DNA of 64,000 nt. It comes from Longimicrobiales bacterium. Lineage in GTDB: Bacteria; Gemmatimonadota; Gemmatimonadetes; Longimicrobiales; Gaopeijiaceae. The first letter of the stretch is position 1. Every line of letters starts with the position of its first letter. The stretch covers positions 3,422,501-3,486,500 of the forward strand of contig OX638356.1 of assembly GCA_951813395.1 (NCBI GenBank), given 5' to 3'. The notes below the pieces were generated by a model. That model was not told the origin of the DNA, did not search any database, and worked only from the letters and a program-made list of their open reading frames with translations. This document shows positions 35,339-38,203 of this stretch, one piece after another. Made by a program: the position numbers and the translations under genes.

Positions 35339-35889
35339 TCCCTTATCCCCCTGGTGATGAGACGTCACGGGGTTCGCAGGTTGCGCCCCTTAACTATAAC
35401 CCTCATGCCCAGACGTGTGCCCTCTTCCGTTTTGCCGGTGATCGGCGGAAGTGTCCAGGCAGTCGGTTGCAGGGATTTCGGGCGGGCCAACGGGACCGCA
35501 TTCGCCTCCAAGACTGTCAATCTGCATGGAAGATGTCCCGGTTCGGCGGCTGGTAAAACGCTGCTGCACGGCCTTCGAAATGGGCCGGTGCGCTGGCGGG
35601 TAGAGCGGGCGGGCGAGGCTGGCGGGTTGCGGGCGAATCTGCAGCGGGCCGGCCGGCGGCGGGCGGGCCATCAGCGGGCGGGCTATCAGCGGGCGGCGCG
35701 CCCATAGAAGCATGCCGGTGTCCCGCGTTTTGCCGCGGAAACGTGGTGAGCGCTCCAGCGCGCGGCCGATCCCCCACATGTGCCCGCCAGCCCGCGTCCT
35801 GGGCCAATACAGAGGGCCGGAATCCTGCCGTTAGCTTATGGGGACAAACGCTAACTCTTTGCCGGACTTGAACTTCGAAGGAGTCAGCC
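35339..35889. other. Gene-free stretch with short repeats
   Basis: I see no supportable gene. It contains 2.6 tandem copies of a 15-base unit, GCGGGCGGGCCATCA then GCGGGCGGGCTATCA (35659-35698). It also holds the left copy of the inverted repeat flanking the DUF222 remnant (35706-35743) and a possible degenerate third copy near 35411-35437. Reading frames here are low-complexity Arg/Pro/Ala. Confidence 0.5.
35706..35743 (+). repeat. Left copy of inverted repeat flanking DUF222-HNH remnant
   Basis: The core TTTTGCCGCGGAAACG (35728-35743) is found exactly, reverse-complemented, at 36514-36529. The flank toward AGAAGCATG and GTCCC also matches imperfectly, giving about 38 related bases per arm. 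The arms are about 770 bases apart and enclose only the decayed DUF222-HNH gene. Confidence 0.65.
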
Positions 35890-36497
35890 ATGACCATCAC
35901 CCAGCTTGGCGAGCGCATTGTCGAACTCGCCGCACGGATCAACATCGCCACCTACGAGATGCTCACCCTCATCGCCGAGTTCGATCGCCGCGAGGGGTGG
36001 GCCGACGCCTTCAACTCCTGCGCCGAGTGGCTGCCTGGAGCACCGGACGCACGATCGGCACCTGCCGCGAGAACGTGCACGTCGCCCACGCGCTACAGCA
36101 CCTGCCCAAGACCTCGGCCGAGATGGAGGCCGGGCGGCTCTCCTACACCAAGGTGCGGGCGATCACCCGGGTGGCCACGAAGGCAACGGAAGGTGAACTG
36201 CTCGAATTGGCCGACAAGGGCTCCGCCGCCGAGCTCGAACGGATGGTGCACGAAGTGCGGGTGCGGATGGCGCTCGACGCGAAGGGCCAGGCGGTGTTCT
36301 TCACGCGCGGCGGCAAGATGCTCGGGAGCGTCCCGCCGCCGGTGAACGAGCCGAAGCTGACGCCCGCGCTGCCCCCCGCCCCACCGCTTCGGCCCGGGCA
36401 GATGTACAACGGCCCGGCCCGGCTCGCGGCCGGCGCGGTCCCCTGGGAGATCGAGGCCGCGGCACGGGAGGCGATCGAGGCGGGTGCCGGCGGGTGA
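35890..36497 (+). pseudogene. DUF222/HNH endonuclease (13E12-like) remnant, frameshifted and internally deleted
   Basis: ATG 35890 after AAGGAG opens a DUF222 protein (QLGERIVELAARINIATYEML, FNSCAEWL). The frame is lost at about 36033 in CTGCCTGGAGC by a one-base deletion. The next frame continues correctly: STGRTIGTCRENVHVAHALQHLPKTSAEM, paraphrased as the DUF222 core, then SYTKVRAITRVAT and ELERMVHEVRVR. It then jumps straight to MALDAKGQAVFFTRGGKMLG, which in intact relatives follows the HNH nuclease core. The nuclease domain is therefore gone. Intact members are mobile or repeated HNH proteins of about 400 residues. Confidence 0.75.
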
Positions 36498-36513
36498 CGA
36501 CGCGCCCGCAGCC

Positions 36514-36550
36514 GCGTTTCCGCGGCAAAAGCAGGGACCCAAGCATGTCT
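36514..36550 (-). repeat. Right copy of inverted repeat flanking DUF222-HNH remnant
   Basis: CGTTTCCGCGGCAAAA (36514-36529), then GCAGGGACCCAAGCATG, mirrors the left copy at 35706-35743. The following 140 bases up to the beta-lactamase-like gene contain no supportable gene. Confidence 0.65.
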
Positions 36551-36691
36551 CGATGGGACTCCCGCCAACCAGACAACGACGAGTGCAGGCAGCAGGCCTG
36601 GCAGATGGTGCCGCGGGCGTACCGCCAGGCTGGCCTCCGGCGCACAAGACCACGGCCTGCCTCGCGCGCACCGCCTGGTCCGGTCGCTCGG

Positions 36692-38203
36692 CTACCAGCT
36701 CCAGGCCGGGTCCACCGCCTTCACCGCGAGGCCCAGCGCTTCGAACTCGCGCTCCTGCCGGTCCGGCGCATGCCTGGCCACCGAGCGGTGACTTTGCACG
36801 ACGATGACCAGGTCGCGCGACGGGATGACATAGGTACTCTGGTTCCCCGCCCCGAGCGCGAAATACGCATCGGTAGGCAATGTCGGCACGCGGCGGCCAC
36901 GCCCGCTTTCATCCGGGGTGTTGACCCAGAACTGGCCCCCGTAGACAGCCGGATCCCACGCGGGCGCCGGCGAACTCACAAAGTCGACGAACTCCTCGGG
37001 CAGCAGCCGCTCGCCGTTCCACACGCCGCGCTGCAGGTAGAGTAGCCCTAGCCGTGCCCAGTTGCGGGGCGTGCCGTAGTTGTAGCCGGTGAGGATGAAG
37101 TTGCCGTAGAGGTCGGTCTCCATGACGAAGCGGCGGATCCCGATCTTGTCGAAGAGGGCGCGCTGCGGCCAGGTGAGGTATTCCTCGCCGATTTCGTTTT
37201 CGACCACGCGCCGGATGATCGAGCCGAGCGTCCAGGGATCCGAGTTGCGGTACCGACCCACGGTGTTGGGCGGAAATTCGGACTCCCGACTTACCGAGAG
37301 GGCAAAGATGTCGACCGGAGCTACGTAGCCCAGCATATGGTCGAACTGGCCCGGAACAACCGACAACGCCATCTGCTCCTCGGTCGAGCCCCCGTTGGTG
37401 AAGCGAAGGCCGCTGGACATGCGGAGCAGATCGGCCACCCGGATCTGCGCACGGGGATCACCCGCCGTGTGTTGCCACTCGGGCACGGGCGCGGGCTGCC
37501 ACAGTTCGAGGTGTCCCATCTGCATCAGACGGCCGATGAGGGTGGCCGTCATGCTCTTCCCCATCGACCAGCTCTCGAGCTGCATATCCCGATGCGCACC
37601 GGATCCGTACTCCTCGGCGACGATGCGGCCCCGGTGCACGACCACGAACGCGGCCCGGATGTCCTCCGGGTTCTCGAAGATCACCCGCCCGGCTTCCGCG
37701 AGGAGTTCGCCGTTCACGTCATCGGGCAGCGGCTCCCGGGACAGCAGGTCGCCCATCGGCCATGGTGTGGTGGCCGCATCCGGCAGCGCGCTCTGCACGC
37801 TTCGGGGCGTGAAGAACGCGCCCTCGGCGTACGGGGGCACGATGACGCAACCCTGGTCGCCAAAATACCGCGCCCGGGCCACCGCGCCGCTCTGCGACGC
37901 GGTCACGATCCCGCTCTCCCCGTCGATGTCGAACGTCAACTCGCCAGCCTCGTAGTCCCGGACCTGGTCCTCCGTGTGCAGGATGCTGTTGTGGAGCGCC
38001 TCCTCCAGGTCGCGTTCGGACACCCAGGTCGCGGAGCAGAGCCGCTTGGCCGGGCTGGTCAGAGCGAAATACACCGGGTTCAGGGCGGTTTCCGGCCCGG
38101 TCCATTCAAAGACGCCGGCGTTGCCACCCGCCGAGTCGCCGTTCGTCCCGCAACCGGCGGCCAACAGGAACAGCACCGGTCCGACCCCTGCAATCCTCTT
38201 CAT
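36692..38203 (-). CDS. Class C beta-lactamase/penicillin-binding-like serine hydrolase, lipoprotein
   Basis: 503 residues. A lipoprotein signal (LFLLAAGCGT), a divergent N-terminal domain (about 30-170), then the beta-lactamase fold. Ser-x-x-Lys is SMGK in ESWSMGKSMT (about residue 247), the second motif Tyr-x-Asn is YRNSDP, and the third region is GAGNQSTYVIPSRDLVIV. Such family XII-type proteins act as peptidases or esterases more often than true beta-lactamases. It sits at the periplasmic face. ATG 38203 follows GGGAG. Divergent from the S9 peptidase gene over 125 bases. Confidence 0.86.
   Translation of the reverse strand: MKRIAGVGPVLFLLAAGCGTNGDSAGGNAGVFEWTGPETALNPVYFALTSPAKRLCSATWVSERDLEEALHNSILHTEDQVRDYEAGELTFDIDGESGIVTASQSGAVARARYFGDQGCVIVPPYAEGAFFTPRSVQSALPDAATTPWPMGDLLSREPLPDDVNGELLAEAGRVIFENPEDIRAAFVVVHRGRIVAEEYGSGAHRDMQLESWSMGKSMTATLIGRLMQMGHLELWQPAPVPEWQHTAGDPRAQIRVADLLRMSSGLRFTNGGSTEEQMALSVVPGQFDHMLGYVAPVDIFALSVSRESEFPPNTVGRYRNSDPWTLGSIIRRVVENEIGEEYLTWPQRALFDKIGIRRFVMETDLYGNFILTGYNYGTPRNWARLGLLYLQRGVWNGERLLPEEFVDFVSSPAPAWDPAVYGGQFWVNTPDESGRGRRVPTLPTDAYFALGAGNQSTYVIPSRDLVIVVQSHRSVARHAPDRQEREFEALGLAVKAVDPAWSW

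Follow-up and report, generated by a model that had tools for sequence, protein, structure and literature searches.

A decayed DUF222-HNH gene copy and its relatives between terminal inverted repeats in a Gemmatimonadota genome

Described systems closest to the locus

DUF222 is a protein family of unknown function that is known chiefly through mycobacterial repeats. Among these is the REP13E12 or 13E12 (DUF222-HNH) repeat family of mycobacteria (Gordon et al. 1999, as cited in PMC10589994), and REP13E12/HNH/DUF222 is described as a repetitive element that lies close to insertion sequences (PMC10589994). A 2026 preprint places REP13E12 regions, without a defined function, among the commonest gene-conversion loci of M. 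tuberculosis (PMC13061034). In the open-licence literature, where DUF222 is thinly covered, no paper describing inverted ends for DUF222 elements was found.

The locus analysed here (copy H) lies in a window of 64,000 nucleotides from a Gemmatimonadota genome consisting of a single contig of 4.09 Mb. The element to which it is assigned below resembles REP13E12 in having a DUF222 gene in several dispersed copies, with heavy gene conversion reported for the mycobacterial regions (PMC13061034). It differs in that its copies come from another phylum, Gemmatimonadota, and carry terminal inverted repeats conserved across the genus, REP13E12 having been compared by description. The present family supplies what the mycobacterial work lacks, with defined ends, many copies, members both intact and broken, and traces of past exchange. 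HNH homing endonuclease genes are likewise single nuclease genes; copies apparently overwritten by conversion, the absence of a target duplication and old sites with decayed copies are further points of likeness. In contrast to these genes, the present element, with its inverted ends and putative nuclease, occupies multiple unlinked intergenic sites outside introns and inteins. With REP/RAYT systems (REPtrons, BIMEs) it shares a gene between inverted, palindrome-like and sometimes tandem repeats that seem to serve as a target of an IS110-family element, but its gene codes for an HNH nuclease, not for an HUH tyrosine transposase (no such domain was found), and solo repeats are few in its genome (about 4 versus 11 gene copies). 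Classical insertion sequences also combine one gene with inverted ends common to dispersed copies, whereas the present element has neither a recognised transposase nor a target duplication, and its outer borders vary, with captured flank.

Copy H and its element family

Copy H proper occupies 35699-36559, slightly more than the 35706-36550 given in a preliminary description of this DNA. Its inverted arms (35692-35746 and 36512-36566) are 55 nt each, 75% complementary and 765 nt apart, and within them the 16-base core that had been noticed on either side of the gene is exactly inverted. By itself, the 16-mer is weak within the window (2 matches, equalled in 12 of 100 shuffles); the fuller motif, in which GTCCCATnnnnnCATGCnnGTGTCCC precedes the core, goes beyond chance there (2 matches, 0 of 100 shuffles). 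The gene between the arms is a DUF222 gene (Pfam PF02720, E 6.7e-6, the sole match, HNH being deleted). Alignment to intact copies bears out the single frameshift and the clean loss of the HNH core that had been proposed: one base is missing near 36033, turning AEWLAWST into AEWLPGAP, and an internal deletion that fuses ..ELERMV to ..RVRM has taken away about 215 codons, and with them the HNH motif as well as DUF222's C-terminal half.

Features of copy H (positions in the window) and genome positions of all copies
Feature	Position	Strand	Basis
GC-rich left arm, common to other copies (B, I, J type)	35596..35698 (start approximate)	+	blastn homology to other genomic copies, starting at genome 3458096-3458107
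Left terminal inverted repeat, CGCCCAT variant	35699..35743	+	outer motif 35699-35724, core 35728-35743
DUF222-HNH remnant, 5′ part, in frame until the frameshift	35890..36033	+	tblastn, residues 1-48, 98% identity to intact copies
DUF222 remnant past the frameshift, other frame, to the deletion junction	36033..36239	+	tblastn, residues 49-120, 96% identity; PF02720
Internal-deletion junction (approximate), copy H only	36237..36266	+	comparison with intact copies, junction search
DUF222-HNH C-terminal remnant through the stop codon	36242..36497	+	tblastn, residues 337-421, 95% identity
Right terminal inverted repeat	36515..36559	-	core 36515-36530, outer GTCCCAT end 36534-36559
Right flank with 3′ end of hydrolase gene	36560..36768		counterpart outside element K, genome 3791226-3791428
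Copies A to F	genome: A 84k, B 569k, C 1659k, D 2667k, E 2794k, F 2820k		
Copies G to K	genome: G 3145k, H 3458k (window), I 3526k, J 3700k, K 3787k		

When up to 2 mismatches are allowed, the core has 29 matches in the genome versus 3 for the reversed pattern, most of them inward-facing pairs flanking DUF222 genes, and the fuller motif, which marks both element ends, has 36 matches versus 0 for reversed-pattern controls. This end motif brackets 11 DUF222-HNH copies, among 16 PF02720 matches genome-wide; 8 copies are intact (A, B, D, E, G, I, J and K), C is frameshifted, and F and H are shrunken, both ends being retained in F as in H. The intact unit of about 1.7 kb runs from GTCCCATnnnnnCATGCnnGTGTCCC through the DUF222-HNH gene to TTTTGCCGCGGAAACG, the two sequences forming its terminal inverted repeats. 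No domain beyond DUF222 and HNH, no second gene and no recognised transposase (DDE, HUH, serine, tyrosine or DEDD) was found in it, and three element loci gave no match to structured RNAs in Rfam. At several sites homology breaks off abruptly where the ends lie, outer flanks are unrelated at most sites, and the end motif is better conserved than the adjoining arms, the left of which is ragged, varying in length among copies. The locus almost certainly belongs to a repeated element whose terminal repeat is the end motif.

The closest named relatives are found in Gemmatimonadota assemblies, at 79-87% protein identity. The same motif, present in 22 of 23 congeneric genomes with almost no control matches, brackets the DUF222-HNH genes of congeneric species (65-85% protein identity), and in most of the relatives' loci the end alignments score above those of shuffled flanks. 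Because pairs of the motif flank DUF222 genes both here and in about ten further species examined, the reading of the repeat as a common intergenic hairpin unrelated to such genes, which the preliminary description had named as its own refutation, is ruled out by the genome search that it had proposed. Distant DUF222 genes of Gammaproteobacteria and Actinobacteria have no clear inverted ends. On a Pseudomonadales chromosome (OX638346.1, loci L185-L190), six DUF222-HNH copies with sharp common borders and an AT-rich left end were observed; these have no inverted ends and carry alternative right tails, and inverted ends are therefore not general to the protein family.

Target duplications, which had been suggested as a further check, were not found: none is common to 9 elements, whose own best flank matches measure 0-4 nt versus a mean of 2.4 and a maximum of 5 for mismatched flanks. 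Transposon families without target duplications exist, so that transposition is not excluded by this result, and the missing duplications might alternatively reflect later decay. This bears on the notion of a passive, MITE-like element moved in trans by an unlinked IS transposase that recognises the ends, with the DUF222-HNH gene as mere cargo. Such an element would be expected to show what is seen here in short inverted ends, multiple intergenic copies and solo ends (at 112k, 2748k and 3066k); yet every complete end pair examined, in many species, encloses DUF222-HNH coding sequence, whole or as a remnant, this gene evolves under purifying selection, a target duplication is missing, and the one IS110-type element that lies in the ends invades them and is no user of them. 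Passive mobilisation in trans is accordingly quite improbable.

That IS110-family element (DEDD_Tnp_IS110) has five near-identical copies (genome 571347, 1255031, 2796055, 3526778 and 3787956) and one 50-nt remnant (3702583). Since all six insertions occupy the same position in the terminal-repeat core, it seems to target the terminal repeats, much as related elements target REP sequences (PMC1525189).

Exchange among copies and the history of the site

Codon-based distances were used for dS and dN/dS. Copy H stands at a dS of 0.16 from the other copies of its own genome, which over the same codons differ among themselves by 0.145, and at 0.44 from its positional counterpart in the congeneric genome G016, which is the level generally seen between these two species. 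The three copies of G016, one of which lies at the copy H site, have an amber codon in common. Read together, the difference between 0.16 and 0.44 and the shared amber codon indicate that each genome homogenises or replaces its copies. The amber stop is codon 227 in each case (L108, L109 and L110), where ERYQVTVH has become ERY-stop-VTVH, and the frame is otherwise open. For nine copies of the present genome, the PHI recombination test gave 0.432 versus a null of 0.496 (p 0.002); copy H sits on a long branch of the whole-element tree because of its deletion.

Exchange extends beyond the ends. About 200 bp of the right flank of site H, including the end of the hydrolase gene, are found again at copy K, and this match (170 of 211 positions identical, score 207 versus a null maximum of 32) stops abruptly. 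As the hydrolase gene is whole at H and a fragment at K, site H is the source. A right flank of 68-88 bp is common to E, G and J, and a left flank to A, J and F.

Gene conversion between long similar repeats requires no nuclease. The main rival explanation is therefore passive recombination: the copies would be ordinary repeats that arose by segmental duplication and RecA-dependent recombination, the nuclease would be irrelevant to their spread and the ends would be conserved borders. Recombination among copies, flanks shared past the ends, ragged left arms and the absence of a target duplication all agree with it. It does not, however, sit well with the sharp stop of homology seen at the ends in several places, with outer flanks that are mostly unrelated, or with an end motif that is better preserved than the arms next to it and that still accompanies the gene in species whose proteins are 65-85% identical; this explanation is judged unlikely.

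At the site of copy H, an element is also present in G016 and G019: its intergenic position matches, and the flanks and adjacent genes are homologous. In G003 the element is absent, and since about 330 bp of flank are missing too, this is not an exact empty site. Empty sites in relatives had been proposed as a check; a search with the joined flanks of copies C, F, H and G against 22 congeneric genomes found no exact one, and at the copy C site relatives carry a different gene where the element sits. Homogenisation at an occupied ancestral site and flank capture fit co-conversion of the homing type, no exact empty site having been found.

The deletion junction of copy H is absent from every other fetched locus, and no other copy in the genome aligns across it. 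A MITE reading of H, as an internally deleted structure shared among copies, is ruled out by this uniqueness. A still mobilised, nuclease-free derivative is what one might picture from the clean loss of the HNH core with both ends kept, and from copy F, which has shrunk likewise with both ends in place; but since the junction is unique to H and two other species have an element at this site as well, it is extremely unlikely. For the same two reasons, copy H has decayed where it stands. Of the suggestion that the locus is a small mobile unit or a nuclease-free derivative with recognisable ends, the recognisable ends and the descent from a multicopy DUF222-HNH element are retained and the mobile nuclease-free unit is given up. 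Copy H is an old decayed copy, an ordinary fossil; it is the element family that merits follow-up.

The encoded protein and how the element might spread

The intact copies are under purifying selection (dN/dS 0.16 over 36 pairs, with dS of 0.06-0.14). In copy G, DUF222 (PF02720, E 6.5e-26) is followed by HNH (PF01844, E 2.5e-6), and the HNH residues H312, H313, N327, H335 and H336 are invariant in 14 relatives. The AlphaFold model has a mean pLDDT of 60, being confident only at residues 1-120, moderate in the HNH region and poor elsewhere. Residues 16-129 match Noc/ParB/Spo0J DNA-binding domains over about 100 residues (Z 8-10.8, rmsd 2.0-2.9), and the best 11 matches of the fold search, all to Noc/ParB/Spo0J, reach Z 8.8-10.8 for a helical domain in a modest model. 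A Z of about 10 for such a domain is only suggestive of a ParB/Noc relation. In copy H, this putative ParB/Noc-like N-terminal domain begins within the 5′ remnant. ParB and Noc bind palindromic sites, and the core TTTGCCGCGGAAA is nearly palindromic.

In the fold comparison, the C-terminal part matches the HNH domains of McrA-type enzymes and IscB. The McrA-type likeness, along with purifying selection, would suit a defence or otherwise host-beneficial nuclease (McrA-like restriction) maintained in many copies. Against this stand the lack of a defence-system match in PADLOC and of partner genes, and the presence of 11 copies, several of them decayed, that are scattered between genes and have transposon-like ends, so that a role of this kind is very improbable.

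The reading that is probably correct is that of a selfish nuclease element, in which a single gene for a protein with a ParB/Noc-like fold and an HNH domain lies between the ends and spreads by break-induced copying and gene conversion. The N-terminal domain would bind the palindrome-like core in the ends, and the HNH domain would nick or cut at the ends or at similar sites. Repair of the break would then copy the element from another copy. Where repair is homologous, resident copies would be overwritten, that is, converted; where one side is repaired by homology and the other by end joining, the product could be a new copy whose arms are ragged and which has picked up flanking DNA. The genome encodes Ku, and end joining is therefore possible. 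Copy H would have lost its nuclease through the one-base frameshift and the internal deletion, its ends being left behind. The copying mechanism, read from the traces that it would be expected to leave in the sequences, has roughly an even chance of being right. A wider proposal is more tentative: DUF222-HNH proteins may be site-specific nucleases, equipped with a ParB/Noc-like domain for DNA binding, that define a class of mobile elements which have inverted ends and spread through break-induced copying by HNH instead of a transposase, and the same activity may drive the so far unexplained conversion of REP13E12 loci in mycobacteria. If true, this would be a new type of element, moving by an HNH nuclease alone, and the present family offers a testable cause for the gene conversion of related repeats in other bacteria.

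Several minor observations were made. In G033 the gene itself contains a further copy of the core, which is not conserved in the present genome and was set aside as a coincidence. Tandem ends, with two or three repeats at a spacing of about 61 bp, occur in four loci of relatives (L115, L118, L119 and L124). Solo ends with no gene between them lie at genome 112220, 2748054, 3066377 and 1256613 and are possible remnants; a DUF222 fragment lies near 2745723. A second DUF222-HNH subfamily is present in the same genome (490519-491880, 1054208-1055605 and 3111165-3112547). Its member at 490k has candidate AT-rich inverted ends, ATACTTAACATTAATGTTCAGCAT, which are unrelated to those described above and score no higher than shuffled controls, and the member at 3111k retains the right end only. 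Finally, the palindrome ACCCTGACGTNACGTNAGGGT, which resembles a MerR-type operator, occurs at 20 sites in the genome, five of them (84540, 2669153, 2819916, 3533640 and 3702740) within about 200 bp of elements.
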